The translations under genes were made by a program, and so were the position numbers. A DNA stretch of 64,000 nucleotides from Aminobacter sp. AP02 (GTDB lineage: Bacteria; Pseudomonadota; Alphaproteobacteria; Rhizobiales; Rhizobiaceae), in contig NZ_QGGX01000014.1 in NCBI RefSeq assembly GCF_003148805.1, positions 62,001 through 126,000 of the forward strand, written 5' to 3'. The stretch's first letter is position 1; each line of letters begins with the position of its first letter. Under the pieces are notes generated by a model. That model was not told where the DNA came from and made no database searches. It saw nothing but the letters and a program-made list of their open reading frames with translations. This document shows, one piece after another, positions 22,011-44,997 of this stretch.

Positions 22011-22808
22011 GGTGCTGTCACGTTGTTCGCAAGATGACCGCGGCGCCGTGCTTTTCAGGCAGGTTGTGCGCTTACGGCAGCCCAATCGGCCATGGCCTGA
22101 CGTCGATGATTTCGAATTTGTGCTGCGGAGCGGTTGGTCTGGGATGGAACGAAGAGGTTTCGGACGGCGGAGAAGATCGACACGAAATGCTGCAGTGAGC
22201 CGACCGACCGGAAGCCTTGGCGTGTTCCCTCCCGCTTTCGAAACGGCAAGTGCGAATTTTCGGCCCGGTTATTCAGGCCCTTATGGGAGCGGTGCTCGAC
22301 TTCTGGCATGACCTGGCGTCTTGCGGCACCGTAGGAGCGCAATTTGTCAGTGATCATGGGCTTCGGCGCCATGCCCTGTTTCTTCAACAGCCGGATCAGC
22401 AATCGCTTGGCGGCCTTGGTGTTGCGGCGGGCCTGGACGATTTCGTCGAGCACGTAACCGTCCTGGTCAACCGCTCGCCAAAGCAAGCATTTGCGTCCAT
22501 TGATACGAACAACAAGCTCGTCGAGGTGCCAGATGTCCGTGGGTAAGGGAGACTTGCGGCGCACACGGCGCGCATAATCGGCACCGTGTGTCCGACACCA
22601 CCGGCGGATCGTCTCATGGGAGACGGCGACACCGCGATAGAGCATCATTTCCTCGACCTCGCGCAGGCTCACGTTGAACCGGAGGTAAAGCCAGACGGCC
22701 CGCGCAACAATCTCGATCGGAAAGCGATGATTTTTTAAGCCGGCATCGTGCTGTTCATGCCACCCAACTACCGCAAGTCCATTGACGAAAAATCAATGGG
22801 ACAGCACC
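22011..22808 (-). mobile_element. IS6-family insertion sequence, 798 bp
   Basis: Imperfect terminal inverted repeats begin GGTGCTGTCACGTTG at 22011 and, on the opposite strand, GGTGCTGTCCCATTG ending at 22808. The 798-bp size and single transposase are typical of IS6. No 8-bp target duplication is found: the flanks are GTTATTTA on the left and AGCTGGTG on the right. The right flank is instead the exact start of a 702-bp copy of sequence from 6806, so the element lies at a recombination junction. Confidence 0.88.
22055..22758 (-). pseudogene. IS6-family DDE transposase with a frameshift near its start
   Basis: The long frame ends at 22055 and reads RFPIEIVARAVWLYLRFNVS, LREVEEMMLYRGVAVSHETI, then the DDE core: TDIWHLDELVVRINGRKCLL (first D), PKPMITDKLRSYGAA (second D) and GLNNRAENSHLPFRKREGTR (E). 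The expected start is ATG at 22758 (MNSTMPA), but that frame meets TAA within a T/A run at 22731-22737; losing one base of an expected TAC-AAA explains it. An in-frame fallback start is at 22672 (GTG), which would drop the N-terminal HTH. Activity is doubtful. Confidence 0.8.
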
Positions 22809-22987
22809 AGCTGGTGGCCTTCGACACCGGCGTCAACATCTCGCTCGGCCTGCCCATCGACCGCACCTCCGTCGACCACGGCACCGCCTTCGACATTGCC
22901 GGAACCGGCAAGGCCAACCACGTCAACATGAACGCGGCGATTGCCTATGCGCGCAAGCTCGCCGGAACGCCTCGGGTGACCGCATGA
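22809..22987 (+). pseudogene. pdxA2: pdxA2 C-terminal fragment
   Basis: Encodes only the last about 59 residues ([20 protein letters not shown] through LAGTPRVTA) of a PdxA2-like protein, nearly identical to the end of the 5995-6984 gene. The catalytic metal site is lost. An ATG at 22748 inside the IS reads into it, giving a 79-aa chimera of no expected function. Confidence 0.88.
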
Positions 22988-23510
22988 CCAAATTCGCAAT
23001 CACGGGCGTCTTTTCCGCTGCCGCCACGCCCATCAACGCCGACCTGTCTCCCGACCACGCCCTGCTGGCGAAGCATTGCCAGCGGTTGCTTGACGAGGGC
23101 TGTCACGGCGTTGCCCTGCTCGGCACAACGGGCGAGGCCAATTCGTTCTCGCTCGGCGAGCGCAAGGCGATGCTGGAAAGCGTCGTCAAGGCAGGCGTTG
23201 CCGCCAACAAGCTGATGCCGGGTACCGGCGTCGCCGCAATCCCCGAAACCATCGAGCTGACCCGCCATGCGCTCTCCGTCGGTATCGACAAGGTCGTCAT
23301 GCTGCCGCCCTTCTACTACAAGGGCGTCTCCGACGACGGCCTGTTCGACACTTATGCGTGCATCCTCGAAGGCATCGCCGACGACCGGCTGAAGGTCGTA
23401 CTCTACCACATCCCCCAGGTGTCGGGCATCGCGCTGTCGGTCGAGCTTGTCGGGCGCCTTGTCGAGGCGTTCCCGAAAACCGTCGTCGGTATCAAGGAAT
23501 CCAAGGGCGA
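22809..23510 (+). repeat. 702-bp diverged copy of the pdxA2-dapA junction at 6806-7507
   Basis: The segment aligns without gaps at a constant offset of 16003 bases to 6806-7507 and carries scattered substitutions, for example in the first codons of the dapA-like gene and many silent third positions. Homology starts at the base after the IS6 terminal repeat and stops at GGGCGA (23510). The divergence argues for a paralogous operon copy or mosaic ancestry, not for a very recent duplication. Confidence 0.92.
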
Positions 23511-23595
23511 AAGTCGCGCGTCCACGAGACGCCAACTGTTCGAAACAAGGCATCGCAATATTAGCAAAGACAAAATTTACCCACTTTTAACGTGA
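22984..23595 (+). pseudogene. DapA-like gene, 3'-truncated copy
   Basis: ATG overlaps the pdxA2 fragment stop as in the intact operon. Residues 1-176 match the 6981-7886 protein with a few changes (for example GVGADK to GVAANK, YARI to YACI), ending just after the Schiff-base motif GIKESKGE. The remaining 27 codons are unrelated, to a stop at 23595. The barrel lacks its last strands, so it should not fold. Confidence 0.88.
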
Positions 23596-23708: not shown

Positions 23709-25433
23709 TTGCACCGCTTTTGGAGTACGTTGGGGTTTCCGAAAAGCGGGGTGGGGGCCACGGACAACACGTTGACCGGGAGTAACACTTTCCCGGAACT
23801 GCTCGCCAATTCTGGCGAGCTGATAACTTTTTATGATCGCAATTACAGGCTTACGCATTCCACAGCGCGGTTCAAGGCTTTGCGCGGACCAACGGTGACA
23901 GAGGGTGCCAGCCTGTTCGACCTATATCCCGGTCTTGCGGCGGGTGAGGCGCGGGTAGCGCTTGAACAAGTGCTGGTTGACGGGCAGTCCAATGCTATCA
24001 ACGTAACCTCCGGCAGCAATCGTGAGGGGATGGTCCTCGTATTTGTGACAGCCGCCGGACTGGGACTCGTAGAATTGACCGACGGTATCGCAATAACCGC
24101 GGCTACCAAGGCGGAGCACAGTAAACTGCTTCATCAGGCAACGCATGACGTGCTCACGGGTCTGCAGAACCGGCAGCGTTTCAGCGAGCGGCTTAATGAA
24201 ATCCTGGCAACGAATGATAACGTGCGTGAACGCTCCGCCTTGCTGCAGATCGATCTTGATGACTTCAAGTCAGTCAACGACACGCTGGGCCACGCTACCG
24301 GCGACGCGTTGCTGAAGCTCGCCGCCAATCGGATAAGAAGTGTCTTGCAGGATGGCGATTCGGCCTTTCGCTACGCCGGGGACGAATTCGCGATCGTCCA
24401 ATATGGAAAGGACGCAAGCGACGCTGAGATCGTGGCGCAAGCGCTCGTTGAATCCTTCAAGGCGCCCTTCATCATAAACGACATGCCGCTCTTTGTCGGT
24501 GCCAGTGTCGGCATTGCCTACGGCCCGCAACATGGTGCCGAAAGCAGCGAACTGATGAAGGCAGCCGATATTGCACTCTATGCCGCCAAGCGTGACGGCC
24601 GGGGTTGCGTCCGTGTCTTCAACCGTTCGATGCTCTTGCTGCTTGAGCAGAGGGAAAATCTTCGGCGCAACCTGCGTCTTGCATTGGAGCGCAAAGAACT
24701 CGACCTTGAGTATCAGCCGCTGGTCCATGCATCAGGCCAAATCGTGGGCTTTGAGGCTCTGGTTCGATGGAACCACTCCGAAATTGGGCTGATTCCGCCC
24801 AACGTGTTCATTCCGATTGCCGAAGCCGACGGCCTTATGGACGACATTGGCCGCTGGGTGCTCGAAGAAGCTTGCCGGCAGGCGAAGACCTGGCCGGACA
24901 CGCTGAGTGTCGCCGTAAACCTTTCTCCCGCACAATTTCTAGGCGGCTCGCTCACCGACACCGTGGCACAAGTAATCGACAGCAGCGGCATACGGGCCGA
25001 CAGGCTTGAGCTTGAAATCACTGAATCCGTCCTGCTTGAGCAGACTGTCGATAATTTGGACACGCTGAACACGCTCAACGTGCTTGGAATCCGCATTTCC
25101 CTCGATGATTTCGGCACTCACTACTCGTCGCTGAGCTACCTCAAGAATTTCCCCTTTGATTCCCTGAAGATAGACCAGTACTTCATTAAGGATCTCGATA
25201 TAGACGGGAAAAGTCAGACCATTGTCCGGGCAATCATCGGGCTGGCGCACGGCCTCGATATGATGGTAACCGCCGAAGGCGTGGAAACTGCCCGTCAGGC
25301 CGAGTGGTTGATCAAGGAAGGTTGCGACTTGCTGCAGGGACATCACCTCGGCAGAGCGATGAGTGCCGAACGGGCGCGGGTTTTCGCCTCTAAAGCGGGA
25401 GCATCTCTCAACTTCCGCCAACGTATCAGATGA
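23709..25433 (+). CDS. GGDEF-EAL cyclic-di-GMP protein with PAS-like N-terminus
   Basis: About 574 aa; TTG at 23709 has AGGAG nine bases upstream, while the first possible TTG (23700) abuts it. A PAS-like N-terminus (FPELLANSGELITFYDRNYR) leads to GGDEF near residue 160 and EAL near 330. The cyclase motif is YAGDEF, with Ala for the first Gly, and the product-inhibition RxxD is QDGD. The phosphodiesterase looks complete: FEALVRW, VAVNLSPAQF, ELEITES, SLDDFG, LKIDQYF, TAEGVET. So it is most likely an active EAL phosphodiesterase with a weak, non-inhibited or regulatory GGDEF. No membrane helices. It opens the 23709-30456 signalling block, 43 bases before the next gene. Confidence 0.93.
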   Translation: MHRFWSTLGFPKSGVGATDNTLTGSNTFPELLANSGELITFYDRNYRLTHSTARFKALRGPTVTEGASLFDLYPGLAAGEARVALEQVLVDGQSNAINVTSGSNREGMVLVFVTAAGLGLVELTDGIAITAATKAEHSKLLHQATHDVLTGLQNRQRFSERLNEILATNDNVRERSALLQIDLDDFKSVNDTLGHATGDALLKLAANRIRSVLQDGDSAFRYAGDEFAIVQYGKDASDAEIVAQALVESFKAPFIINDMPLFVGASVGIAYGPQHGAESSELMKAADIALYAAKRDGRGCVRVFNRSMLLLLEQRENLRRNLRLALERKELDLEYQPLVHASGQIVGFEALVRWNHSEIGLIPPNVFIPIAEADGLMDDIGRWVLEEACRQAKTWPDTLSVAVNLSPAQFLGGSLTDTVAQVIDSSGIRADRLELEITESVLLEQTVDNLDTLNTLNVLGIRISLDDFGTHYSSLSYLKNFPFDSLKIDQYFIKDLDIDGKSQTIVRAIIGLAHGLDMMVTAEGVETARQAEWLIKEGCDLLQGHHLGRAMSAERARVFASKAGASLNFRQRIR

Positions 25434-25476
25434 GTCGGTAGCCTATCCGCAGGGCAGCGCAGAAGTAGAGAGTGAC

Positions 25477-26013
25477 ATGCCGCCGAAAACCGCGCACAAC
25501 AACTTAGCGGAGCTCGACTTCCGCATGATGGTCCAGATCGACATGGAGATGACTACATTTAACTCTAACTGGACCCATTGCGACTACATCTCCACTTATC
25601 TCGCGCGCACTGTCAGTCATAACCGTCCTGATTCGGTGTTGTTTGCAAATCTGCTCTCATCCGCGCTAAACGAATTGCTTGAGATCACCTTCAGGACCCG
25701 CCACTCGGGTGGGACCTTCGGATGTAGCGTTTCGCGCCGGAACCACGTTGACAGGATCGAACTCACTTTCACGTGCGGCGAGGATGAACGGCGCTCCTTC
25801 GAGCATGCGGTGACAAGAATTCAAGCCGGCGCGGTCGAGGCTGGCGCGGTCGAGGCCGACTACATTAGTTCATTGTCACGCGAGGTCGGTCCCGGTCGAG
25901 ACATGCTGCTGCTCGAACTCGTAGTTAGCTACAAGGCACAAGTGCGCTTTGATACATACGACGACTCGGTCAAGCTCGTGGTCGACCTCCCCCTTGGGGG
26001 CCTGACACATTGA
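25477..26013 (+). CDS. Degenerate GHKL-like (slr1658/SiaB-type) regulatory protein
   Basis: 178 aa, ATG at 25477 (MPPKTAHNNL), weak purine-rich site before it. The segment SVLFANLLSSALNELLEITF resembles the N-box helix of anti-sigma/SiaB-type GHKL proteins, and LLLELVVSYKAQVRFDTYDD could be the last strands, but no ATP-lid glycine box is visible. The 29541-30101 gene product is a more canonical relative, so this could be a pseudokinase partner. Its end overlaps the next gene by four bases. A 15-bp tandem duplication (25828-25857) inserts GAVEA twice. Confidence 0.65.
   Translation: MPPKTAHNNLAELDFRMMVQIDMEMTTFNSNWTHCDYISTYLARTVSHNRPDSVLFANLLSSALNELLEITFRTRHSGGTFGCSVSRRNHVDRIELTFTCGEDERRSFEHAVTRIQAGAVEAGAVEADYISSLSREVGPGRDMLLLELVVSYKAQVRFDTYDDSVKLVVDLPLGGLTH
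25828..25857 (+). repeat. 15-bp tandem repeat, two copies, in coding sequence
   Basis: The unit GGCGCGGTCGAGGCT occurs at 25828-25842 and again, with one mismatch, at 25843-25857. It adds an in-frame GAVEA pair to the GHKL-like protein and may vary in length between strains. Confidence 0.7.
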
Positions 26014-27194
26014 CCGCAGTTCCTTTCACCAACAGTCCACCTTTCAAAGTGCAGTTCGATTCGAGCAACCAGGAGTTTGCGATTTCCGGCTCGGTACGTC
26101 CGAGGTCGGTCGATGAGATTGTACCTAGCCTAACCTTGCTCAGAGAAGCCATCGATAGCGTCAGCGGCGTGTTCTACCTCAATGTTCGCCGCCTTTCGCA
26201 GATGAACAACACGGCCTTCCATGCCTTCACGCACCTGCTGGTGGACGCCTGCCAGGCGAGGCCAGATATGAGCTTCGTGGTCATAACCTCAAGCGTTGTC
26301 GGCTGGACGACCCAGAAATTCGGCCGGCTGAGCCGGATCGAACCGGCCATTAGGGTCGAGGAATACGACGCCGACTTCTACCCTGGCCAGAGCTTCCTCG
26401 AAGAGGGTGGGTTCATCCCCGTTCTACGCACTCAGACCAAGATGACGTGGCGCCATGAGTGCAACATTCTTCCACGCCACGGCATGCGTGAAGGCATCAC
26501 CATGGCGGACATATGTTGCGGCATTGGCGATTTTGCGGCCCTCGTTCAGAAAGAATTCAAGCCGGCTCGGATCGTCGCCCTTGATCATTCGCGCTCCAGC
26601 CTAGCCTATGCCCGGCAGGTGGCAGCCGATTTCAACATCAGGGGCGTTGAATACATCTATGGCGACGCGTCGGAAATGATGTTCGAAGACAACCAGTTCG
26701 ATCTCGTCACCTGCCGTCACTCACTGCAGATCTTCGACCGGCCAACGCTAATCCTTAGGGAAATGTATAGGATATGCAAGCCCGGCGGACGCGTCTACAT
26801 CACCAACGAGAAGATCTCACAATGCCTGGGCGAGCCGCACGGGGAATCGATAGAGTGGACATATGACGAGCTCGCGAAGCTGTTTGCCCATTTCAAGATG
26901 GACCTGGAAATGGGGCCGAAGAACCGCCACTATCTAATGGATGCCGGTTTCGATGACGTGCGCGCCGAGTCTTTCATGGTCACCAACCTCGACGGCGATC
27001 CACAAGATTTTGCAGATGTCATCCAAGCCTGGGAAGACACATTCGCCGGAGAGATGTCCAACAAGCGCGGCGACAGCCCAGAATTTGTGGAACGTTTCCG
27101 CAGGGGATTTCAGGACCATATCTTTGCTGCCTTGCATCCCAAAGGCTACGCTGGCTGGCCGGTCTGGGTTGCGTCAGGGCGCAAGCCGTTATGA
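26010..27194 (+). CDS. STAS-like (slr1659-type) domain fused to a class I SAM methyltransferase
   Basis: 394 aa, probably from the TTG at 26010, which overlaps the preceding stop (TTGA) and has GGGGG upstream. Residues about 10-120 resemble the slr1659-type STAS-like domain: SVSGVFYLNVRRLSQMNNTAF and FVVITSSVVGWTTQKFGRLS. Where the stand-alone relative at 30106 has LNSSG, this one has MNNTA, so a phosphoacceptor Ser is lacking. Residues about 150-390 are a Rossmann methyltransferase: motif I MADICCGIGDFAAL, acidic IVALDHS, YGDASEMMFEDNQFDLVTCR and MYRICKPGGRVYI, of UbiE/Methyltransf_11 type. The stop overlaps the phosphatase start as ATGA. The substrate is unknown; the fusion suggests methylation controlled by partner switching. 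Confidence 0.85.
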   Translation: MTAVPFTNSPPFKVQFDSSNQEFAISGSVRPRSVDEIVPSLTLLREAIDSVSGVFYLNVRRLSQMNNTAFHAFTHLLVDACQARPDMSFVVITSSVVGWTTQKFGRLSRIEPAIRVEEYDADFYPGQSFLEEGGFIPVLRTQTKMTWRHECNILPRHGMREGITMADICCGIGDFAALVQKEFKPARIVALDHSRSSLAYARQVAADFNIRGVEYIYGDASEMMFEDNQFDLVTCRHSLQIFDRPTLILREMYRICKPGGRVYITNEKISQCLGEPHGESIEWTYDELAKLFAHFKMDLEMGPKNRHYLMDAGFDDVRAESFMVTNLDGDPQDFADVIQAWEDTFAGEMSNKRGDSPEFVERFRRGFQDHIFAALHPKGYAGWPVWVASGRKPL

Positions 27195-29536
27195 GCACAG
27201 TGGATAACGGCACGTCACGCTTTGGGCTTCGCTCCTTTCGAGCGAAGTTCGTTCTGGTTGTCGGCGGCGCGGTGCTGGTGGACCTGCTGATTAGCGGCGG
27301 TCTGGCACTGTGGAACGTCAACCGCCTGTCGAGGGACGCCACCCAGCAGGTCGGTCTGGGCTTGACCAAGGCGACCGGCGAATATCTAAACAATTACATT
27401 GAGACGACAGCGGAGCGGACCGATCTGCTGATCGATCGTGTCCACACTGAAGTCGACATTCTGGCTGGCTCAACGCAGGCGTTGATAGACCATCCCCAAG
27501 TTCAGTCGGCGGTGGGCGAAGCGATCAAGCGCGATCAGTCTTTCACGACCCGGCTTACCTACAATCCATCCAGTGACTGGTGGCAGAACGAAGCCGGCGA
27601 GTCTTCAGCCGTCACCGTCTGGGGGTATCTGCTCAATGCGACTCGAAACCTTCCGCCTGACGTCGAGAGGATAGTCCGTGATAGCACGGCATTTAACATC
27701 TTCGGCCCCGCCGTTCAGAGTACCGGAACCCGCAAACTGCAGGTCTATTTCATCGGGCCCAAGAGCGCGCCGATCCTGCGCTCGACGCCATACACCAACC
27801 AGGGTGTTACGTTCGACCGCGTTTATCCCGGCCACAATGACACCAACTGGTGGGACTTTTTCTTCCCACAGCTATACGAGGATTGGCAGGCTTGGCTGAA
27901 GGATCCCGGCAGCAAGCCAGTCGACGAGGAGATCACAACGCTTTCGCCGTATAAGGATGGCGTCACGGGCAAGATAATCGTCAGTTTCTTTCGGCCGGTC
28001 TGGAACAAGGAGCGGACCGACCTCGCCGGCGTCGTAGGCGCCGATCTGACGCTCGACCAGATGGCAGACATCGTCCAGAGCGTAAGGATCGCCGAAACTG
28101 GCTTTGCCTTCCTCTCCATGTCCAATGGCAATGTCCTTGCTGTCACCCCGGAGGGCGAGAAGACACTCGGCATTGGTAATTCGAGTCCGTCGGTGTTCGA
28201 CCGATCCCTTAGAAGAAGCACACAGTCAGCCATCTCTGCGCTTCCGCTCGATCAAAACGATGACGGCGTCATCCAGACCATTTCGCTCGACAACAATGGG
28301 GAGAAATTGAACTACATCGTCGTGCTGAAAAAGCTGCGGCCAACAAACATGTGGAGTGCGGGGCCGATCATCAAGGAGACGATGACCGTCGGTATCGTGG
28401 TTCCCGAGAGCGAAATCTATGCAACGTTGATTGCCGCTCAGGAGAGCATCTCTCAGGCAACTAACCGCATTTTGCTCTATCAGCTGGCAGCGATCGGTGT
28501 TGCGCTGATGATCGTCTTTGCTGCAGTGTTCGGCCTATCTAAGCGCATCACGGCGGGCCTCAGTGCACTGGCCGCCGCTGCGCGCAAGCTGCAATCCAAG
28601 GACTATACTGTCCGTGTCGACATTCCCACAAAAGATGAGGTCGGCGAGCTCGGGGTGGCCTTCAACCGCATGGCGGAGGAGATCAGCTACCATACTGAAA
28701 ACCTAGAGCAACTCGTTGAGGACCGCACCCAAGATCTCGAAAACGCCAACCAGAAGATCTCGTCGCTCAACGAAAAGCTGCGCAGCGAGAACGTCCGCCT
28801 CGGCGCCGAACTGGACGTTGCGCGCCAGATTCAACTGATGGTCTTGCCCAAGGATCGCGAATTGGCGACAATCCCAGGCGTCGAGATCGCAGCCTACATG
28901 CGGCCTGCCGACGAGGTCGGCGGTGACTATTACGATGTGCTGCTCGACGGGCAAAAGCTCAAGGTCGGCATCGGTGACGTCACCGGTCACGGCTTGGAAA
29001 GCGGCGTTTTGATGCTGATGGTCCAATCGGTAGCCCGTGCGCTGCAGGAAACAGGCGAGGACGATCCCCTGCAGTTTCTCGATCGGCTTAACCGAGCGAT
29101 CTTCAAGAACCTAGAGCGCACTAATTCCGACAAGCACCTTTCGCTCGCCTTCCTCGACTATGAAAACGGGAAGCTGACACTTTCTGGTCAGCACGAGGAG
29201 GTCGTGGTGGTGCGCGCCGAAGGCGTCGAGCGCATCGACACGATCGACCTTGGATTTCCAATCGGGTTGGAAAAGGACATCTCGCCTTTTGTCGCGACTC
29301 GCAACGTAGCTTTTGCGACCGGCGATGTGGTGGTGCTCCATACCGACGGCGTGACTGAGGCGGAAGGCGCAAAGGGCGACCTTTTTGGCCTGGATCGCCT
29401 TGTCGAAAGCGCTCGCCAGCGCCATGGAGCGAGTGCTGAAGAGATAAAGGACGGAATTGTGGCGGATCTGATGGCTCATATTGGCACTAGCAAGATCCAC
29501 GATGACATCACACTCGTAGTCATGAGGCACAGGTAA
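27191..29536 (+). CDS. Cache-HAMP-SpoIIE/PP2C phosphatase (SiaA/RsbU-like)
   Basis: 781 aa. A first membrane helix near residues 15-40 (KFVLVVGGAVLVDLLISGGL) and a second near 432-455 (LLYQLAAIGVALMIVFAAVF) bracket a periplasmic double-Cache sensor (TGFAFLSMSNGNVLAVTPEG). HAMP follows (LSALAAAARKLQSKDYTVRV, DEVGELGVAFNRMAEEI), then a coiled coil (LEQLVEDRTQDLENANQKIS) and the PP2C/SpoIIE domain with metal-binding PADEVGGDYYDV, VGIGDVTGHGLESGVL and HTDGVTEAEGAKGDLFG. It should dephosphorylate the STAS-like antagonist(s) when a periplasmic ligand binds, by analogy to SiaA-SiaC and RsbU-RsbV. Four-base overlap with the methyltransferase gene. Confidence 0.93.
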   Translation: MSTVDNGTSRFGLRSFRAKFVLVVGGAVLVDLLISGGLALWNVNRLSRDATQQVGLGLTKATGEYLNNYIETTAERTDLLIDRVHTEVDILAGSTQALIDHPQVQSAVGEAIKRDQSFTTRLTYNPSSDWWQNEAGESSAVTVWGYLLNATRNLPPDVERIVRDSTAFNIFGPAVQSTGTRKLQVYFIGPKSAPILRSTPYTNQGVTFDRVYPGHNDTNWWDFFFPQLYEDWQAWLKDPGSKPVDEEITTLSPYKDGVTGKIIVSFFRPVWNKERTDLAGVVGADLTLDQMADIVQSVRIAETGFAFLSMSNGNVLAVTPEGEKTLGIGNSSPSVFDRSLRRSTQSAISALPLDQNDDGVIQTISLDNNGEKLNYIVVLKKLRPTNMWSAGPIIKETMTVGIVVPESEIYATLIAAQESISQATNRILLYQLAAIGVALMIVFAAVFGLSKRITAGLSALAAAARKLQSKDYTVRVDIPTKDEVGELGVAFNRMAEEISYHTENLEQLVEDRTQDLENANQKISSLNEKLRSENVRLGAELDVARQIQLMVLPKDRELATIPGVEIAAYMRPADEVGGDYYDVLLDGQKLKVGIGDVTGHGLESGVLMLMVQSVARALQETGEDDPLQFLDRLNRAIFKNLERTNSDKHLSLAFLDYENGKLTLSGQHEEVVVVRAEGVERIDTIDLGFPIGLEKDISPFVATRNVAFATGDVVVLHTDGVTEAEGAKGDLFGLDRLVESARQRHGASAEEIKDGIVADLMAHIGTSKIHDDITLVVMRHR

Positions 29537-29540
29537 CGTC

Positions 29541-30101
29541 ATGGTCTCGCTATATGGTCCGACCGAGATTACCATCGGCATGAACAAAAGCGTCAGCCGC
29601 GTGAAGCTGTTCGATGGCCCGCTCGATCTGAGATGGCATCACTGCGCCACGACCTCGGACTTCATTGCAGATCTGTTCGCGCTGCCGTTCAATGTTTCCC
29701 GCAGCGATTATCGCGAGGTACGACATAGCATCGGCTATCTCGTCAATGAGCTGATCGAAAATGCCATTAAATTCCGCGAGCCAGGCGAGATTCTGGTCGA
29801 AGCGGCGATGGATAGTGATAACTTTAGGGTTAAGGTGGCCAACGTGATCAGCACCGAGGCCGCTGCCAAATTCCAAGCTCTGCTCACCGAGATCACCGTA
29901 GGCGATCCTGGCGACCTGCTTATCCAGCGCATCGAGGTCAACGCCGCCGACCCGGAAGCCTCCGGGTCTGGCCTTGGATTGCTGACGTTGATGAGCGACT
30001 ATGGTGCCCGCTTGGCTTGGAAATTTAGTCCGGTCGACGACGGCAGGCGCGTGCATGTCGAGACCTTCGCCACACTTCCTGTCAAACAGTCGCAGCAGTG
30101 A
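29541..30101 (+). CDS. GHKL kinase-like switch protein (slr1658/SiaB-type)
   Basis: 186 aa, four bases after the phosphatase stop. The N-box is clear in [20 protein letters not shown], and a glycine box in [19 protein letters not shown], with a final strand block [10 protein letters not shown]. This is the ATP-binding fold of SpoIIAB/RsbW and SiaB serine kinases. It is expected to phosphorylate the STAS-like protein encoded next (30106-30456). The start codon may be this ATG or the internal one at 29581 (MNKSVSR). Confidence 0.85.
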
Positions 30102-30105
30102 GAGA

Positions 30106-30456
30106 ATGAGCCAAATTAGCGAAATCAAGACGGACGAATACCGGGTTTGGGCCGAGGCCAGCTTGATCCATTTCGACGGCACGATGCGGCTGTCAGGCAC
30201 CGATGCCTACGCGCCGATCATGGCTCTGATGAACGGAGTTTTGGCGGGATCTCCTGAAACTATCACGATCGAACTTACCGATCTCGAATTCCTCAACTCC
30301 TCGGGCATCAACCTGCTGGCGAAGTTTACCATTGAGGTGCGAAAGCATCCGAACGTCGCGCTTGTCGTACGTGGTAGTTCCCAGATCCCGTGGCAGAACA
30401 AATCCCTGCCGAATCTTAGGAAACTGCATCCAGCTATCTCTCTGCAGATCGACTGA
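30106..30456 (+). CDS. STAS-like (slr1659/SiaC-type) switch protein
   Basis: 116 aa, ATG at 30106, four bases after the kinase-like stop, with GAGAG before it. The line [20 protein letters not shown] is the phosphorylatable helix start of STAS-like antagonists (compare DSSG in SpoIIAA), followed by [20 protein letters not shown]. It should be the shared target of the GHKL-like kinase and the PP2C phosphatase. Its output could be the GGDEF-EAL protein or the methyltransferase; neither is shown by sequence alone. Confidence 0.85.
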
Positions 30457-31144: not shown

Positions 31145-32245
31145 TCAAATCTGCAACTGTTGCAAGATTTCCCCCAGATGATTGACCTGGTTCATCACCG
31201 ACAATGCCGTTCGCGTCGGGGCGAGCATGCCAGCGGCGGCAGCAGCCCTGACGTCGCTCGGCGAGCATCCGAACTCGTTGCGGAACGCCCGACTGAAGGT
31301 GGCGGCCTCCGAAAAGCATAGCCGGTCGGCGATCTGCTCAATGCTGCGCGCCAGAGCCGGATCAGCTAGTTCCTTGTAGGCGGCGAGCAGCCGCTGGCGT
31401 TGGATGTACCGGGTCACGCCGTGCATTGGTTCGAACAGGGCGTAGAGTCTGGAGCGCGACACCCCCAACCACCGACAGATCGTTTCAGGCCCGAGATTCG
31501 GCGAGCAGAGTTGCCGATGGATCAACTGCCGCGCCTTTTCGAGCATCGTCGCCTCGATTTGCCGCTGCGCCTCGGCGATACGATCGGATGTTGGCGCGAG
31601 ACAGGCGGTGACCATCGCCCGCATTGCCTCGACGTAATTGGGCACATCGTCTTCCGAGATGGTCAACAGCCGCCGTTCGAACGAAATCAGGAAGTCGGCA
31701 AGCAGGCCGCCCATGCCCGTCGGCCCCACGGTGCCAGAGTGCGCATCAAGCACGCCCGCAATCGGGCGCAACAGGTCACGAGGGATATAGACCGTCGACA
31801 CACTGGAATCGGTCGCCGCCCCAACATAGGGGCGGTCCAGGGAGCGGAAGTGCACCTGGCGCGGTAGTGCGCCTGGGCCTTGCGATGCATGCATGGCACT
31901 TTCGGGCAGCACTAGACACCAGTGGTCGAGCGGATCTTTGCGGATGTGCCTCCACGTGCGTGGCACCGGCCTCCCCGGCATGCGTGCCGACGTGAAAGCC
32001 AGGCTGCCGAGGCTCCACACCTTCTGTTCAAAGACGAAACCCTGCCCCGCTTCTGCGCTTGGCGAGGTATCGATCACTGAGGAGTGAAACGTACGCCAGG
32101 CTTCGAACTGATCTTGGGTTGGCAAATCTCGGGTGTCGAAACGCAAGATTGGAACAAGCCCCGGTGTAACCTCATCACGAACGTGGCCGTGGTCGCAATC
32201 GGCGACCGATGTGTCATCGAATTCTCGATCGGCCGCTCTCTTCAA
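31145..32245 (-). CDS. AraC-family transcriptional regulator
   Basis: Up to 366 aa. The N-terminal part (ILRFDTRDLPTQDQFEAWRT, LRPIAGVLDAHSG) matches the AraC-binding-like sensor domain of the PchR/FeaR type. The C-terminus is a double HTH: PETICRWLGVSRSRLYALFE then YIQRQRLLAAYKELADPALA, IEQIADRLCFSEAATFSRAF and FRNEFGCSPSDVRA. The true start is unclear: the longest frame begins with TTG at 32245 and no ATG lies ahead of the conserved region. No adjacent target operon; it may act on distant genes. Confidence 0.88.
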   Translation of the reverse strand: MKRAADREFDDTSVADCDHGHVRDEVTPGLVPILRFDTRDLPTQDQFEAWRTFHSSVIDTSPSAEAGQGFVFEQKVWSLGSLAFTSARMPGRPVPRTWRHIRKDPLDHWCLVLPESAMHASQGPGALPRQVHFRSLDRPYVGAATDSSVSTVYIPRDLLRPIAGVLDAHSGTVGPTGMGGLLADFLISFERRLLTISEDDVPNYVEAMRAMVTACLAPTSDRIAEAQRQIEATMLEKARQLIHRQLCSPNLGPETICRWLGVSRSRLYALFEPMHGVTRYIQRQRLLAAYKELADPALARSIEQIADRLCFSEAATFSRAFRNEFGCSPSDVRAAAAAGMLAPTRTALSVMNQVNHLGEILQQLQI

Positions 32246-33933: not shown

Positions 33934-34536
33934 TCAAACGAGGCCAGTCACCACGCCTATGCCGGTGATCGCGGCCAGCGCACCCAGCGAGCGCACAGCC
34001 ACTGCCCCGCGTGCGCCGGCCTTGCCGTCGAGAGCCAGGCCGAAGCCAAGTCCGGCCGCATGCAACATCGCCGTCGCCAGCACAAAACCGGCCCCATAGG
34101 CCAGACCGCTGGCGCTCTCGGGCATCTCGGCACCGTGGGCATAACCATGGAAGATCGCAAAGAAGCCGACCAGCGCCATGGCAGCGGCCGCCCCGGCCCG
34201 CAGATTGAAAGCGACAACGCCGCCGAAAACGACGATCGACAAGCCGATGCCGAGTTCGACGAAAGGTAGGGCGATGCCGGCAAGGCCGAGCGCGCCACCC
34301 AGGACCATGACGGACACGAAACTTGCCGGGACCAGCCAGCGGGCCCGGCCGCCAAGCTGGGCGGCGAAGAGGCCGACCATCACCATGGCGAGCACATGGT
34401 CGAGGCCGCCGAGCGGGTGGGCAAATCCGTGGGTGAAGCCTTCGACGTGACCGAGGCCGGTATGCGCGCTGGCGAGTCCGGGCACCAGTGCGAAGGCTGC
34501 CAGCGCTGCTGTTCTTGCGAGAAATCTGGTGTTCAT
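33934..34536 (-). CDS. ureJ: HupE/UreJ-family nickel permease
   Basis: 200 aa with a signal-like first helix (ARTAALAAFALVPGLASAHT) and five to six more helices. The metal-binding signature HPLGGLDHVLAMVMVG (HPxxGxDH) and later IFHGYAHGAEMP are diagnostic for HupE/UreJ. Nickel import fits a gene ending a urease cluster. It follows ureD by 42 bases on the same strand. Confidence 0.93.
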   Translation of the reverse strand: MNTRFLARTAALAAFALVPGLASAHTGLGHVEGFTHGFAHPLGGLDHVLAMVMVGLFAAQLGGRARWLVPASFVSVMVLGGALGLAGIALPFVELGIGLSIVVFGGVVAFNLRAGAAAAMALVGFFAIFHGYAHGAEMPESASGLAYGAGFVLATAMLHAAGLGFGLALDGKAGARGAVAVRSLGALAAITGIGVVTGLV

Positions 34537-34578
34537 GGTCTGCTTCCTTTCATCGGCTATGAGTCAGATATCGGGCTG

Positions 34579-35457
34579 TCATTTGCGCCTTAGGGCGGGT
34601 TGCTGGCCGAAGGCTGCTGCAACGGCGAGTATGAACAGGCTTTCGGCGATACCGCGCGCGGCGATCGCGTCTGCTGCCAGGCAACGCACGCCCCAGCCGG
34701 CGCCATTGGGGAGCGCCGTGATGCCGGTAACCTGGCGGCCAGGCCCACCAAGGCTTGCAAGCTCATCTATCGTCGGGAGCCGGTTAGGCGCGCCCACGAG
34801 CAAATAGCTGGACACGACCTTCCAAATACCGATGGGCGAAGCGGGGCCCGCAAGGTCCGCTCCAGTGATGTCGAGATTGTCGCGCACCAGCAGCCGCTCG
34901 TTGGCGTCGCGAATGTCGACTTTCGCCTTCAGGCACTCGAACGGCCGGCCGCGACCTTCGGGGTCGTGCAAGGCGAAGGCGTCGGACAACAGCAGCACCG
35001 CGCCTGGCGCGAGCCTGGCTTGAGTGATGTTCGAGCATGCGGCGCCGGGAAACAGCACCAGCGGATCGGGGGTCAATGCCAGGAACGCTCCCTCCTGCAG
35101 AACGATCTCGGTCGTCTGGTGAGCCGGCTGGCCATGGCAGTCGTGAACGACAGTGGCCGCCTGGGTGGTGACGTGGCCGGCAGCGCCCTCCCCCACGTCG
35201 AAGCGGCTCGAGAGCCGGTCGTCGCGATAGAGCCCGCCTGATGAAGACTGCTGGTAGACGGTGAGCAAGGACGAGATGGCGGCATCGAGTGCAAACGGCC
35301 GCGTCATATGAAACGGGTAGGAGACGTATTGGCGCCCGATATGCGTGCGCGCGCCGTGACGGGACAGCGCCAATTCGAAGCGGCCGCTTCGCGCCCCGGT
35401 CTGGCGCGTCTGTACCGGAGCGCGAAATACCGGCGGTTGGGGCCAATGGCTCGTCAT
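34579..35457 (-). CDS. ureD: Urease accessory protein UreD (UreH)
   Basis: 292 aa. UreD scaffolds the apo-urease-UreF-UreG complex for nickel delivery. Recognisable stretches are [49 protein letters not shown] and [15 protein letters not shown]. The ATG overlaps the ureG stop as ATGA. UreD lies last among the accessory genes here, whereas many clusters place it first. Confidence 0.92.
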
Positions 35458-36101
35458 CTGAACAACACGTCCGAGACGATGCGGTCAGCGATCGCGTCGA
35501 CCCCTTCATTGCTGCGGCAATTGGTGAGGGCCATCGGCCGACCGGCGCGCGCGGTGGCGGCCTGCGCTGCCATCGCCGCGAGATCGACACCGACGTAAGG
35601 TGCGAGGTCGGTCTTGTTGACGACCAGCAGGTCGCATTTGAGCACGCCTGGGCCATTCTTGCGCGGAATGTCGTCGCCGCCGGCGACGTCGATGACGAAC
35701 ATCCACCAGTCGACGAGATCGAGCGAAAAGGTCGAGGCGAGGTTGTCGCCGCCGCTCTCGATCAGGATCAACTCGACATCCGGAAACAACGCCTCGAGAT
35801 CGTCGGCGGCGGCGATGTTGAGGGTGGGATCCTCGCGAATGACGGTGTGCGGGCAAGCACCCGCCTCAACGGCGGCGACGCGCGCCGGATCGATCAGCCC
35901 CGAGCGGCGGATGCGCTCTGCATCCTCTGCGGTGACGAGGTCGTTGGTGACGATCGCCAGCGACACGCCGCGCGCCGCAAAGGCCGGGATCAGCCGTTCG
36001 ATCAACGCGGTCTTGCCGGAGCCGACGGGACCGCCGATGCCGATGCGAGCGGCGCCGACACGCGACGGCGAAGGAGAATGGGTAGACGTCCTGGTGTCCA
36101 T
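35454..36101 (-). CDS. ureG: Urease accessory GTPase UreG
   Basis: 215 aa SIMIBI GTPase that binds nickel and drives its insertion. P-loop [18 protein letters not shown], the Cys-Pro-His metal site in [19 protein letters not shown], switch region [16 protein letters not shown] and the NKTD specificity motif in [14 protein letters not shown] are present. Four bases separate its start from the ureC stop. Confidence 0.97.
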
Positions 36102-36105
36102 AGTG

Positions 36106-37818
36106 TCACCTCAGCATGTAGCGTTGGGTCAGCGGCAGTTCGTAAGCCGGCTCGCAGGTGGCAAGTTCGCCGTCGACGAAGACGTCGAAGGTCTGCGGAT
36201 CGACCCGAATGTTGGGACAGGCATCGTTGTGCAGCATGTCCTTCTTCGACAGCGCGCGATTGCCGCGCGACGGCAGCAAGGCCTTCTTGAGATCAAGCGT
36301 GCCGGCAAGGCCGCGGTCGATCGCCAGCGGATTGACGAAGCAGGCCGAAAGCGCCTGCTTGGCCCGGCCGAAAGCTCCCCATTGCGGGCGCAGGAGCAGC
36401 GGCTCGCAGGTCATCAGCGAAGCGGCACTGTCGCCCATCGCACCCCAGGCGATGAAGCCGCCCTTGATCACCAGTTCCGGCTTGATACCGAAGAAGGCGG
36501 GCCGCCAGATGACGATGTCGGCCATCTTGCCGTCCTCGAGCGAACCAACGTGTTCGGCAATGCCAAACGTGCGCGCAGCGTTGATGGTGTATTTGGCGAC
36601 GTAGCGCTTGATGCGCTCATTGTCGCCGAAGCGCGTCGTCTCCTCCGGCAGGCGTCCGCGCTGCTTCTTCATCTTGTCGGCCAACTGCCAGGTGCGGCAG
36701 ATCACCTCGTTGATGCGGCCCATGCCCTGGCTGTCGGAGCCGAGCATCGAGATCGCGCCGATGTCATGCAGGATGTCCTCGGCCGCGATGGTCTGGGCGC
36801 GGATGCGGCTTTCGGCAAAAGCGACGTCCTCGGGGATCGCCGGGTTGAGATGGTGGCACACCATCGTCATGTCGAGATGTTCGTCGAAGGTGTTGATCGT
36901 GTAGGGATTGGTGGGGTTGGTCGAGGACGGCAGGCACCACGGCACGCCGGCGACGCTGATGATGTCGGGCGCGTGACCGCCGCCGGCACCCTCGGTATGG
37001 TACATGTGGATGGTGCGGCCGTTGATGGCGGCGAGCGTATCCTCAAGAAAGCCGGACTCGTTCAGCGTGTCGGTATGGATCTGGACCGGAAAATCGAGCT
37101 CATCGGCCACGGTCAGGCATGTGTCGATCGAGGCCGGCATCGTGCCCCAATCCTCGTGCAGCTTGAGGCCGAGGCAGCCCGTCTCGATCTGCTCCACGAG
37201 CGAAGCAGGGCGGTGCGAGTTGCCGCGGCCGAGAAAACCGAAGTTGATCGGCCAGTGCTCGGCCGCCTGCAGCATCTTGCCGACATTGAACGGCCCGCCG
37301 CAGTCGATGCCGACGGTGATCGGGCCCAGCGAGCCGCCGAGCATGGTGGTGATGCCGGAGGCGATGGCATGATCGCAGAGTTGTGCGCTGTCGAAGTGAA
37401 CGTGCACGTCGAGCGCTCCAGCAGTTGCGATCAGTCCCTCGCAGTCGCGCACGGTGGTCGCCGCAGAGACGATGAGGCGCGGATCGACGCCGTCCATGGT
37501 GGCCGGATTGCCGGCCTTGCCGATACCAACGATCTTGCCGTCGCGGATGCCGAGATCGCCCTTGACGATGCCTATGACGGCATCGATCACGGTGACGTTG
37601 CAGAGCAGGAAGTCGAGCGCGCCCTCGACGCTGGTGACGCCGGCAGCGAGGCCTGCGCCATCGCGCAGCGTCTTGCCGCCGCCATGCAGGCATTCGTCGC
37701 CATAGACAGCGAAATCCTTCTCGACGACGGCAACCAGCGAGGTGTCGCCGAGACGGAAGCCGTCACCGGTGGTCGGGCCGTACATTGCCGCATAGTCGCG
37801 GCGTGACAGGGTTGCCAT
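36106..37818 (-). CDS. ureC: Urease alpha subunit
   Basis: 570 aa, full length. The ATG at 37818 ([19 protein letters not shown]) follows GAGGGAGG; the longer frame upstream is ureB tail in another frame. Nickel site residues are visible: [15 protein letters not shown], the carbamylated Lys in [29 protein letters not shown], and the flap [20 protein letters not shown]. It hydrolyses urea to ammonia and carbamate in the cytosol. Confidence 0.98.
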
Positions 37819-37831
37819 GGTCGTTCCTCCC

Positions 37832-38527
37832 TCAGGCGCCGCGGAAGCCGCGGGCGCGGGCGTTTTCAAGTGCAGCGGCCTTGGCCGCCGGATCATCGGC
37901 CGAGCCGTTCGACAGTCCGTTGAGGCCGGACAGCTGCTGCTGTCCTCCAAAGGTGGTCAGCGGCACGTCCTTTTCCTGCCCCGGTTCGAAGCGAACGGCG
38001 GTGCCGGCGGCGATGTCGAGACGCATGCCGAAGGCTGCCGCCCGGTCGAAGTCGAGCGCCTTGTTGACCTCGAAGAAATGATAATGGCTGCCTATCTGCA
38101 CCGGCCGGTCGCCGGTGTTGACGACCTTCAGCGTCAGCTTTCGGCGTCCGGCATTGAGCTCGATGTCGCCTTCCTCGGCGACGATTGCCCCGGGTTCGAG
38201 ATCGTCGGCGGCAGCGCCGGCAGCCGGGCGTAGCGGCTCGTGCACGGTGACCAGCTTGGTGCCATCGCGGAACGTCGCCTCCACCTGCAGCATCGGCAGC
38301 ATTGCCGCGATCCCTGGCATCACGTCGGCCTGGGTCAGGATGGCCGAGCCGATCGACATCATCTCGGCAACGGAACGCCCTTCCCTGGCACCTTCCAGGA
38401 TCTCGTCGGTGATGATCGCCACAGCCTCGGGATAGTTGAGCAGAAGCCCCTTGGCCCGGCGTTTGCGCGCCAGTTCGGCCGCCGTGTAGATCGTCAGGCG
38501 TTCAAGTTCGGTCGGGGTCAACAACAT
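37832..38527 (-). CDS. ureAB: Fused urease gamma-beta subunit (UreAB)
   Basis: 231 aa. Residues 1-100 are UreA (gamma): [59 protein letters not shown]. Residues about 118-225 are UreB (beta): [55 protein letters not shown] short Pro/Ala/Gly linker joins them ([12 protein letters not shown]). Most bacterial ureases keep these separate; fusion is the Helicobacter-type arrangement and occurs in some alphaproteobacterial second ureases. It lies 13 bases upstream of ureC. Confidence 0.96.
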
Positions 38528-38539
38528 CGTGGCTACTCC

Positions 38540-39223
38540 TCAATTCGAAAACAGGCGCTGGCCCGAAGCGCCATGCATGGCGACCGCGATCTCGCAGAGC
38601 GGCGTGAACGATCGCAGCGGCTGATCGTCGCCGGTCGGAACACGGGCCGCGGCCTCGATGGCAGGCAGGGCGCGCGCGACGACTTTCTGCGCGTCGATGG
38701 CGCCGACCACGCCAAGCCGCACCGCAGCCGTCGCCAGCGAGGCCACCATCTGGTAGCCGCCGATCGCAACCGCACTCGCCTCGTCGAGGTCGAGCGCTTG
38801 CCAGGCGAGACCCTGGACGACTGGCAGGTGGCCGCAGGCATCGCCCTTGCGGACCATCGCTCGATAGGCGGCAGCGCCGCAGGTTCCGATCCGCTCATGC
38901 GTGGTCAACAGCGCCATGCCGTTGCGGCGCGAGCCCGATCGCAGCCCCTCGACGAAGGTTGAGGCCTCGACCTCGCGGTCGAGTTCAGCCAGCGCCTCGA
39001 GATCGCCGGCGAGCCGGTGGGCGCGCACCAGCGCGATGCGGTCGGCATCGGCCCAGCGATGACGGATCTGGATGTCGACGAAAGCGGCGAAGTCGAAGGT
39101 TCCAAGCCTTCCGGCAAGAGAGGACGACGCCTCGAGGCCTTGCGAGAAGGCAAAGCCGCCCGAGGGGAACTGCCCGTCGGCATGCTGCAGGGCAACGAGC
39201 AACGGTGCCGATGGACCGTTCAT
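38540..39223 (-). CDS. ureF: Urease accessory protein UreF
   Basis: 227 aa from the ATG at 39223, which overlaps the ureE stop as ATGA. UreF gates GTP hydrolysis by UreG. Conserved HADGQFPSGGFAFSQGLEAS and the ending DAQKVVARALPAIEAAARV are typical, and the C-terminus GQRLFSN matches the UreF tail that docks UreG. It precedes ureAB by 12 bases. Confidence 0.95.
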   Translation of the reverse strand: MNGPSAPLLVALQHADGQFPSGGFAFSQGLEASSSLAGRLGTFDFAAFVDIQIRHRWADADRIALVRAHRLAGDLEALAELDREVEASTFVEGLRSGSRRNGMALLTTHERIGTCGAAAYRAMVRKGDACGHLPVVQGLAWQALDLDEASAVAIGGYQMVASLATAAVRLGVVGAIDAQKVVARALPAIEAAARVPTGDDQPLRSFTPLCEIAVAMHGASGQRLFSN

Positions 39224-39672
39224 TCGGCCTCCTCGCTCATCTCGACACGGCCGCCCGAGATCAGCTGTTCGATGCGTGCGGCATAGGCCGAGGCCTGACC
39301 ATCCTGGGCAACAAGCAGGTCCTCCCCGTCGAAGCGCACCCGCCAATGCAGGTTTCCGGCGTGGTAGCCGAGCTCCAGTGCGTCGCTGGCCGAACGCGGG
39401 GTAAATCGCAGCCAGCGCTGCTCGCCGGCGCGCACGATCACCGCGCGATGATGGTCAAGCACCAGCACCGCACCGTCATGCAGCTTCTGGTCACGCGGTA
39501 GGGTGATCGCCACCTCCTCGCCCTTGTCGGTCCGCGCCATCAGACGCCGGCGGTCGAGATCGCCGACGGCCACCGTCACGAATTCCACGGCGTGATGGTG
39601 TTCGAGATGGTGGATGGCCTCATGCATTGCCGGATCGCTTCGGCTGCCAAGCACGCTTTCAATTCGGAGCAT
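39220..39672 (-). CDS. ureE: Urease accessory protein UreE (nickel chaperone)
   Basis: 150 aa. The UreE N-terminal domain (LMARTDKGEEVAITLPRDQK, LHDGAVLVLDHHRAVIVRAG) and C-terminal metal-binding domain (LELGYHAGNLHWRVRFDGED with the conserved His) are present. There is no His-rich C-terminal tail, so nickel storage is unlikely. Its nearest relative in this window is the UreE at 58200. It begins 46 bases after the urtE stop. Confidence 0.95.
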   Translation of the reverse strand: MLRIESVLGSRSDPAMHEAIHHLEHHHAVEFVTVAVGDLDRRRLMARTDKGEEVAITLPRDQKLHDGAVLVLDHHRAVIVRAGEQRWLRFTPRSASDALELGYHAGNLHWRVRFDGEDLLVAQDGQASAYAARIEQLISGGRVEMSEEAE

Positions 39673-39717
39673 CTCAAAAATCCTTTCTGCGCTTGACGTT
39701 CGGGCGTGAGGCAGCTG

Positions 39718-40413
39718 CTACAGGCCCATATGCTTGTGGATCAGCTCGTTGCTGAGATCGGCGGTGTCGCCGGCTGCCGCGATCTGCCCCTTCTCCAGGA
39801 TGGCGAAGCGGTGCGCTGCGCTGCGGGCGAAGCGGATCTTCTGCTCGACGAGGATGATGGTCAGGCCATGGTCCCGGTTCAGTGACATGATCGCCTGTTC
39901 GATGTGCTCGACGATGTTGGGCTGGATGCCCTCGGTCGGCTCGTCGAGAACCAGTATGCTCGGGTCGGTGGCGAGCGCACGGGCGATCGCAAGTTGCTGC
40001 TGCTGTCCGCCCGAGAGATTGGTGCCGCGCCGGTGAAGGTGGTCCTTCAGGAAGGGAAACAGCGTCCAGACCAGCGGCGGCACCGATGTCTGGCCATCCG
40101 CCCGGGCGTTGCACCCCAGCAGGATGTTGTCGAGCACGCTGAGTCCGGGCACGATCTCGCGGCCTTGCGGCACGTAGCCGATGCCGCGCCGCGCTCGCTG
40201 GTAGGTGAGGTCGCGGCTGATCTCGGTCCCTTCGAACTCTATGGCACCTTTCGTCTGCACGCTGATGCCGAGCAGGCTGCGCAGCAGCGTCGTCTTGCCG
40301 ACGCCGTTGCGCCCCATGATGCAAAACACCTCGCCCTTGCGGATTTCGAGGTTGAGATCGTGAATGATGTGGCTGGTTCCGTAGAACGCATTGAGGTCTT
40401 TGAACTTAAGCAT
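39718..40413 (-). CDS. urtE: Urea ABC transporter ATP-binding protein UrtE
   Basis: 231 aa from ATG at 40413 (MLKFKDLNAFYG), which overlaps the urtD end by eight bases. Walker A MGRNGVGKTTLLRSL, FVPQGRE-like YVPQGREIVPGLSV, signature LSGGQQQQLAIARALA, Walker B LVLDEPTEGIQP and ILVEQKIRFAR are all UrtE-like. Couples ATP hydrolysis to uptake of urea or short amides. Confidence 0.95.
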   Translation of the reverse strand: MLKFKDLNAFYGTSHIIHDLNLEIRKGEVFCIMGRNGVGKTTLLRSLLGISVQTKGAIEFEGTEISRDLTYQRARRGIGYVPQGREIVPGLSVLDNILLGCNARADGQTSVPPLVWTLFPFLKDHLHRRGTNLSGGQQQQLAIARALATDPSILVLDEPTEGIQPNIVEHIEQAIMSLNRDHGLTIILVEQKIRFARSAAHRFAILEKGQIAAAGDTADLSNELIHKHMGL

Positions 40414-41200: not shown

Positions 41201-41203
41201 CGG

Positions 41204-42373: not shown

Positions 42374-42386
42374 GTTTCAGCCAAGC

Positions 42387-43277: not shown

Positions 43278-43305
43278 GCCGCTTCCATCCGCGTTGGTCG
43301 GGGGC

Positions 43306-43332
43306 GTGCCGGCGCGGAACCCGCGCCGGCAC
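43306..43332 (-). promoter_or_regulatory. Intercistronic hairpin between urtA and urtB
   Basis: Perfect 12-bp stem GTGCCGGCGCGG/CCGCGCCGGCAC with loop AAC, in the 70-base urtA-urtB gap. No U-run follows, so probably an mRNA-stabilising or partial-termination element that raises urtA over urtB. Confidence 0.72.
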
Positions 43333-43347
43333 AGCTGGCAATCAGGA

Positions 43348-44954: not shown

Positions 44955-44997
44955 AAAACAAAAAAGCCCGCCAACTCCGACAAGGAGCTTGCGGGCT
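44955..44997 (-). terminator. Rho-independent terminator between the ANTAR gene and urtA
   Basis: On the minus strand the stem AGCCCGC/GCGGGCT (44991-44997 and 44965-44971) with an inner CTCC/GGAG pair is followed by six T, G, then TTTT. It sits 81 bases past the amiR-like stop and 360 bases before urtA. It may simply end amiCR, or act as the attenuator that the ANTAR protein overrides. The stretch 44596-44954 is AT-rich near 44665-44850, where a separate urtA promoter is likely. Confidence 0.85.

Follow-up and report, generated by a model that had tools for sequence, protein, structure and literature searches.

Classical partner switches such as SpoIIAA/SpoIIAB/SpoIIE and RsbV/RsbW/RsbU are built from a PP2C phosphatase, a GHKL kinase and a STAS substrate with a phosphorylated serine. 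In a 64,000-nucleotide stretch of the Aminobacter sp. AP02 genome (contig NZ_QGGX01000014.1; hereafter, the window), open reading frames and profile searches identify six co-directional genes on the + strand, at positions 23709 to 30456, that form a real, widespread and apparently undescribed variant of such a system:

23709–25433, + strand: gene 1, GGDEF-EAL protein with a weak N-terminal PAS match, an accessory gene of the operon
25477–26013, + strand: gene 2 (sw1), degenerate slr1658-superfamily GHKL protein, a probable pseudokinase; the longest frame runs from GTG 25363
26010–27194, + strand: gene 3, degenerate slr1659-type STAS domain (residues about 11–117) fused to a class I S-adenosylmethionine (SAM) methyltransferase (matches within residues about 138–355 of 394)
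27191–29536, + strand: gene 4, membrane receptor phosphatase (transmembrane segment, dCache, transmembrane segment, HAMP, PP2C of the SpoIIE type)
29541–30101, + strand: gene 5 (sw2), intact slr1658-superfamily GHKL kinase
30106–30456, + strand: gene 6, intact slr1659-superfamily STAS protein with a predicted phosphosite, Ser65, in LNSSG

The genes are tightly packed, with 4-nucleotide overlaps at the 2/3 and 3/4 junctions and 4-nucleotide spacing at 4/5 and 5/6; promoter and terminator scans of the locus returned no excess over shuffled sequence. HAMP, SpoIIE PP2C, EAL and GGDEF all score above their Pfam cut-offs, while dCache_1 in gene 4 (37.6 vs 45 bits) and Pfam STAS in gene 6 (19.0 bits, cut-off 22.6) score below theirs. 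An initial annotation, made from the letters of the window, had described six genes at this place and on this strand; all are present, and its domain calls were upheld by Pfam and NCBIfam matches and by homologue checks.

Relatives of the operon were collected by searching with an alignment of the gene 3 fusion protein, one genome per species, and the best 80 of 188 relatives were kept, mostly from Mesorhizobium, Sinorhizobium/Ensifer, Rhizobium, Aminobacter, Phyllobacterium, Neorhizobium and Labrys. Because it was picked by a fusion-protein search, this set is biased to at least 68% identity and holds the fusion by construction. The gene-neighbourhood survey that the initial annotation had suggested found all six genes in the same order and orientation in 77 of 82 loci (the best 80 of 188 plus two plasmid loci); of the other five, three have no GGDEF-EAL gene, a fourth carries it in inverted orientation, and in the fifth (L064) the contig ends inside the PP2C gene, with no GGDEF-EAL gene upstream either. 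Genes 2–6 stand in order in 81 of the 82, the cut locus being the exception, and in all 16 loci of the same order of bacteria (13 of them new) that were found with the slr1659 model, ten of which have no GGDEF-EAL gene. Gene 2 directly precedes the fusion gene in 82/82 and 16/16 loci. For the counts over 93 loci given below, L139, L143 and L147 were dropped because they duplicate L062, L019 and L075, both loci of one genome (L058 and L082) were kept, and L099 and L100 were excluded from residue counts.

The initial annotation had named a lack of co-occurring homologues elsewhere as one result that would refute it; the test, described next, did not refute it. Overlapping draws of genomes at the level of phylum, order and family contained an intact slr1659 gene above the cut-off in 7 of 398, 21 of 397 and 31 of 297 genomes, respectively, together 46 distinct genomes of the order; matches below the cut-off (28, 4 and 1 genomes) were not counted as intact, and the majority of sampled genomes had no slr1659 match. 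The fusion protein was found in all 46: 20 (the window's genome included) from the locus scans and 26 of 26 from a further check, where it was recovered in one piece at 63–76% identity in 25 and was split by a contig break in G879. In 44 of the 46 genomes the two slr1659 matches share a contig, at a distance of about 4.1 kb; G839 and G879 have them on different contigs. The single locus-level exception to the pairing of intact STAS and fusion is an extra, solitary slr1659-type gene in G007 (A. carboxidus; L151, 7583–7933), with LNSQG for LNSSG and about 4 kb from another GGDEF-EAL gene; this genome also holds the full cassette. Within the genus, a close match to the fusion protein was missing in three of nine relatives (G005, G006 and G009). 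Among 72,556 plasmid records, 120 matched the fusion protein over at least 80% of its length, and pSymB of S. meliloti 1021 carries the operon (NC_003078.1:458877-465600).

Genes 4–6 have the features of a working switch. Gene 4 contains hydrophobic segments near residues 15–40 and 427–450; its best solved relative is 6k4e (E 1e-17), which we take to be SiaA-PP2C, and its solved relatives include chemoreceptors. The PP2C metal motifs are intact in 92 of 92 copies, as in partner-switch phosphatases, and the whole 5.6 Mb genome holds one match to the SpoIIE PP2C family. Gene 5 matches NF047703 (slr1658_superfam) at 184.6 bits against a cut-off of 100 and retains the residues of a GHKL kinase, with N-box Asn/Glu/Glu/Asn and GxG in 92/92 copies and the Gly of the GLG box in 91–92 of 92. 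A re-run of the kinase alignment left out L136 and four other rows. Gene 6 matches NF047705 (slr1659_superfam) at 140.6 bits (cut-off 100), and the phosphorylatable NSSG is present in 92/92 free STAS proteins. Its first Ser corresponds to T68 of SiaC, which sits in the peptide LLYLNTSSIK according to the available part of PMC7647112. In searches of PDB, the free STAS profile reached weakly to anti-sigma factor antagonists (best E 0.0024), and gene 5 and the profiles of kinase and gene 2 found nothing useful.

The initial annotation had also described doubled switch parts. Two homologous GHKL/STAS pairs are indeed present; the second, formed by gene 2 and the N-terminus of gene 3, is degenerate and for that reason unlikely, on its residues, to be a second phospho-switch. 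Both members fall below the family cut-offs of 100 bits (gene 2 vs slr1658_superfam, 30.0 bits, E 2e-7; gene 3 vs slr1659_superfam, 35.1 bits, fused domains 35–39 bits). These weak matches are real, because homologues match too (39/39 gene-2 homologues and 20/20 fused STAS domains) and because profile–profile comparison with hhalign (gene 2 vs gene 5, 96.2%, E 2e-9; fused vs free STAS, 96.6%, E 6e-10) exceeds two crossed controls (4.9% and 0.4%). For gene 2, ATG 25477 (residue 39 of the long frame) is a more likely start than GTG 25363, since in 81 of 93 loci homology begins at residue 30 or later.

Gene 2 does not have the intact N- and G-boxes of a GHKL kinase: the Mg-site Asn of the N-box is lost in 93/93 loci (Val, Thr, Ile, Met, Leu or Ala instead) and GxG is absent in 85/93, so that we consider the protein a probable pseudokinase. 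The fused STAS domain, whose site was equated with that of the free protein by hhalign and by the SiaC peptide, mostly fails to present a phosphorylatable site and reads N-N-x-A: the position of the first Ser is Asn in 88 of 93 loci (Ser in 2, Ala in 2, Met in 1), and that of the second is Thr in 51, with Ala, Val, Leu, Ile or Met in the others. In L100 (14489–15004) and L102 (10759–11277) the degenerate GHKL protein bears the public name 'ubiquinone biosynthesis methyltransferase UbiE', for which its sequence gives no support.

The methyltransferase part of gene 3 has an intact SAM-binding motif I, with its GxG and the acidic residue after it; D167, CCGIGDF and D192 do not vary among the aligned sequences (45 of 45). 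This places it in class I, and it matches Methyltransf_11 in Pfam (E 2.5e-20). It is closest to UbiE and small-molecule types, and its solved relatives, matched by sequence within residues 138–355, are generic methyltransferases. An anti-phage role was considered and rejected; the sole PADLOC match (mad2) was to this part and was put down to the general fold.

Across six pairs of loci, the ratio of nonsynonymous to synonymous substitution rates (dN/dS) is 0.04–0.14 for gene 2 and 0.02–0.10 for gene 3, indicating purifying selection, and all six genes give values well below 1 in the tested pairs. Trees of the GHKL and STAS families, built from 54 sequences each, separate intact and degenerate copies into two clades with 100/100 support, although bootstrapping of the GHKL tree had yet to converge and a stop character was dropped from one row; the window's copies of both kinds are placed beside those of Labrys.

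Gene 1 begins at TTG 23709, with AGGAG just 5' of it (the frame is open from TTG 23700 too), and matches EAL (E 3e-73) and GGDEF (E 1.5e-42) in Pfam, with PAS_4 below cut-off. The initial annotation had seen here a phosphodiesterase in place of a cyclase, and this was not supported. Counted by eye, the GGDEF half of the window protein matches DX7NX8DX21RX[G/S/A]GDEF, the pattern given for functional cyclases in the available text of PMC8546604, and the EAL, DDFG, K, EGVE, QG and D.D/N.D/AGDEF residues are kept in 78–79 of 79 gene-1 copies. Both halves thus look intact, and the protein may have both activities. Of 93 loci, 79 have the gene, one of them in inverted orientation; because it is absent from 14, we treat it as accessory.

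A further possible link to cyclic di-GMP (c-di-GMP) comes from the surroundings of the operon. On an annotated pSymB of S. meliloti, the operon lies 3.3 kb from a regulator gene that is followed by genes for an epimerase, a galE-type protein and a glycosyltransferase. This regulator is identical to PDB entry 5nla, presumably CuxR. As described in the available parts of PMC7902896 and PMC10519070, CuxR is a c-di-GMP-responsive activator of the uxs1-uxe-apsS polysaccharide operon. Of 93 loci, 47 are flanked by a CuxR homologue (at least 46% identity): upstream and co-directional in 20 (13 within 364 bp), upstream and inverted at 7.3 kb in one, and downstream and convergent in 26 (22 within 300 bp). 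More distant CuxR-like neighbours of 28–31% identity in the Aminobacter loci L025, L029 and L037 were not counted. The GGDEF-EAL gene is present in all 47 loci with CuxR, and CuxR in none of the 14 loci without GGDEF-EAL (Fisher p 1.6e-5, uncorrected for phylogeny), a value that overstates independence because the GGDEF-lacking loci come from few lineages; 32 loci have GGDEF-EAL and no CuxR in the flanking DNA examined. Genes like uxs1, uxe and apsS were found in 22, 20 and 18 of 96 loci, respectively. The CuxR-uxs1 locus for an arabinose-containing polysaccharide, known from S. meliloti, is near the operon in many Sinorhizobium, Rhizobium, Neorhizobium and Mesorhizobium loci, although it codes for a regulator and biosynthesis and not for a switch. 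The reading of gene 1 that we favour is an optional c-di-GMP branch tied to CuxR.

In the window itself, the corresponding neighbour is the following:

31145–32245, − strand: AraC-family regulator related to CuxR, convergent with the operon and outside it, 41% identity to the S. meliloti protein

Across comparisons its identity to S. meliloti CuxR is 38–41%, and its best solved relative is again 5nla (E 4e-63). It is the best CuxR match in its own genome, with a close second on contig 9; it has no N-terminal RRRWPR-type stretch like that of the S. meliloti protein and falls short of clear orthology, while holding the convergent position typical of CuxR in many Sinorhizobium loci. Elsewhere, in G1019, the cuxR-uxs1-uxe-apsS set is intact, and what is left of the STAS gene is a fragment (L152, 9151–9332) 8 kb from cuxR; the module appears to have been lost and the polysaccharide locus retained. 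Ten loci (L064, L084, L085, L095, L135, L136, L140, L142, L145 and L146) have a different, soluble SpoIIE-type PP2C near the module (confirmed by Pfam in L145 only, and assigned by eye in L140, L142, L145 and L146), and all ten lack GGDEF-EAL. Inspection by eye also suggests RsbW- and STAS-like genes in several of them and, in L136, genes resembling type VI secretion parts.

The likeness to SiaABCD and to the slr1658/slr1659 pair noted in the initial annotation was confirmed. As in SiaABCD of P. aeruginosa, a receptor-type PP2C, a kinase, a small target (phosphorylated there, predicted to be so here) and a c-di-GMP enzyme lie in one operon, and the phosphosite has an equal place in the STAS-like loop (PMC7647112, available part). 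Unlike SiaABCD, the operon adds a degenerate kinase/STAS pair and a methyltransferase, and its c-di-GMP gene encodes a GGDEF-EAL protein and is dispensable. Its products score far below the cut-offs of the Sia-specific families: gene 4 vs the SiaA equivalog NF038263, 143.8 vs 700 bits in the C-terminal half only; gene 5 vs the SiaB kinase family NF038262, 28.7 vs 85 bits; gene 1 vs the SiaD cyclase NF038266, 107.1 vs 290 bits in the GGDEF part only. The slr1658/slr1659 families (NF047703/NF047705) occur adjacent and in equal order in Kovacikia (L134, 8920–10000), where this cyanobacterial pair lies between apparent SulP transporters, and in G117, a genome of another class (L133, 4485–8193), where the order is slr1658, slr1659, PstS-like and PP2C with a GGDEF homologue directly upstream. 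Both have one intact pair and no methyltransferase fusion, unlike the operon here, of which the G117 locus is a possible simpler relative. With SpoIIAA/SpoIIAB/SpoIIE and RsbV/RsbW/RsbU the operon shares a PP2C, a GHKL kinase and a STAS protein with a Ser that is predicted to be phosphorylated; it differs from these classical switches in that a sigma factor is missing among the six genes, and the effector is presumably an enzyme.

We therefore propose, with tentative and nearly even confidence, a conserved rhizobial partner-switching operon whose effector is the degenerate pair holding the methyltransferase. The dCache receptor would sense a putative extracytoplasmic ligand and so set the PP2C activity of gene 4. 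The gene 5 kinase would phosphorylate, and the gene 4 PP2C dephosphorylate, Ser65 of the gene 6 STAS protein, which would switch partners when unphosphorylated. Because gene 2 probably cannot use ATP and the fused STAS domain is without the usual phosphosite, these two would hold the methyltransferase in a complex immune to phosphorylation. Free STAS may compete for this clamp complex or remodel it and, in the presumed direction of control, govern methylation of a putative substrate; the methyltransferase would then be an output, as the initial annotation supposed. At most sampled loci, GGDEF-EAL would be a second output that sets the c-di-GMP level, and nearby CuxR and polysaccharide genes, where present, would read that level. 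The operon, shared by a set of rhizobia and other related soil bacteria, probably relays an outside signal, often near a c-di-GMP-dependent regulator of surface polysaccharide. More doubtful, but possible, is the wider formulation of a new class of switch, in which a dead kinase/STAS pair has been turned into an effector clamp on a methyltransferase that is released by a living pair, with a parallel GGDEF-EAL branch feeding CuxR.

Several points weigh against the effector-clamp proposal. Binding, phosphorylation and methylation by the operon's products are all predictions from sequence. Gene 2 retains N-box Asn103, Glu104 and Glu107 in 93/93 loci, and GxG is present in 8/93, among them L137 (7063–7569), where GPGLGLLEL is near an intact G-box and the protein may represent a halfway stage in losing kinase function; loss of ATP use is therefore not certain. 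Potential phosphosites remain in the fused STAS domain, with Ser at the first site in 2/93 and Thr at the second in 51/93. Only half of the loci have CuxR nearby, and in the window the AraC neighbour is a diverged paralogue that lies beside urease genes, not polysaccharide genes. Finally, 2 of 79 gene-1, 2 of 93 gene-2 and 1 of 92 kinase tblastn segments contain a stop, marking either broken genes or natural ends.

A SiaABCD-like switch in which GGDEF-EAL is the real output, and the methyltransferase a feedback or side branch, seems unlikely. Binding of SiaC activates the cyclase SiaD (available part of PMC7647112), CuxR accompanies only loci with the GGDEF-EAL gene, which are the large majority, and G117 pairs its simpler switch with a GGDEF homologue. 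Yet the GGDEF-EAL gene may be missing or inverted, whereas the STAS-methyltransferase occurs in every locus with the core, a regularity to be read in light of how loci were found (the best 80 by fusion-protein search, the 16 further ones by slr1659). We are similarly doubtful of single-kinase sequestration, in which the gene 5 kinase holds the non-phosphorylatable STAS-methyltransferase, gene 6 titrates the kinase, and gene 2 only stabilises or heterodimerises. The two GHKL proteins are homologous, and lasting kinase complexes with a non-phosphorylatable STAS domain are conceivable. Against this, gene 2 is under purifying selection, directly precedes the fusion gene at every locus and overlaps it in the window, and this adjacency points to gene 2 and the fusion as physical partners. 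An adaptation loop, in which the gene 3 enzyme, much as CheR does with chemoreceptors, methylates the receptor phosphatase or some other protein of the switch, is very improbable: the dCache-HAMP receptor architecture and the chemoreceptors among its solved relatives would suit it, but the enzyme is of the UbiE/small-molecule type, CheR is a poor match (16.6 bits, cut-off 27), and a CheB-like gene is missing among the six. A chance cluster or set of decaying genes, which the transposase and truncated gene just upstream and the five stop-containing tblastn segments elsewhere might suggest, has a negligible claim, since conservation of the operon across many genera rules out chance clustering and dN/dS is low throughout.

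The copy in the window may have a history of its own. Among the loci from the best 80 of 188 relatives, its fusion protein is closest to that of Labrys okinawensis (79%; PP2C, 86%), compared with 74–76% (PP2C, 67–69%) for other Aminobacter; a fragment from the same genus, in G008, exceeds these values (96% over residues 273–394; PP2C, 89%). GC content is 55–59% in the operon vs 56–67% around it. Directly upstream lie an IS240-type DDE transposase gene (22055–22672, − strand) and a truncated dihydrodipicolinate synthase gene (22984–23595, + strand). The Labrys-like sequence, the GC content and the transposase fit lateral transfer. Downstream, 33934–46862 (− strand) encodes HupE/UreJ, urease subunits, UreF and ABC transporter components with substrate-binding proteins, probably for urea.

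The initial annotation knew of no described system of this composition, and searches of open-access papers yielded no account of the operon, returning instead work on SiaABCD, c-di-GMP and unrelated topics. A search there with SMb20447-20452, which we take (unconfirmed) to be the tags of the S. meliloti operon, likewise found no papers. The available text of PMC7902896 on CuxR-uxs1 does not mention the operon.

The reference legume symbiont S. meliloti 1021 and many other rhizobia carry a partner switch whose output is apparently an enzyme, a methyltransferase, and with it an example of a kinase/substrate pair that has degenerated and yet remains under selection. The operon is also a candidate upstream signal for c-di-GMP-activated polysaccharide. 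If the effector-clamp and CuxR reading is true, the operon would supply a signal input that has been missing for the arabinose polysaccharide made under c-di-GMP control in S. meliloti and its relatives.

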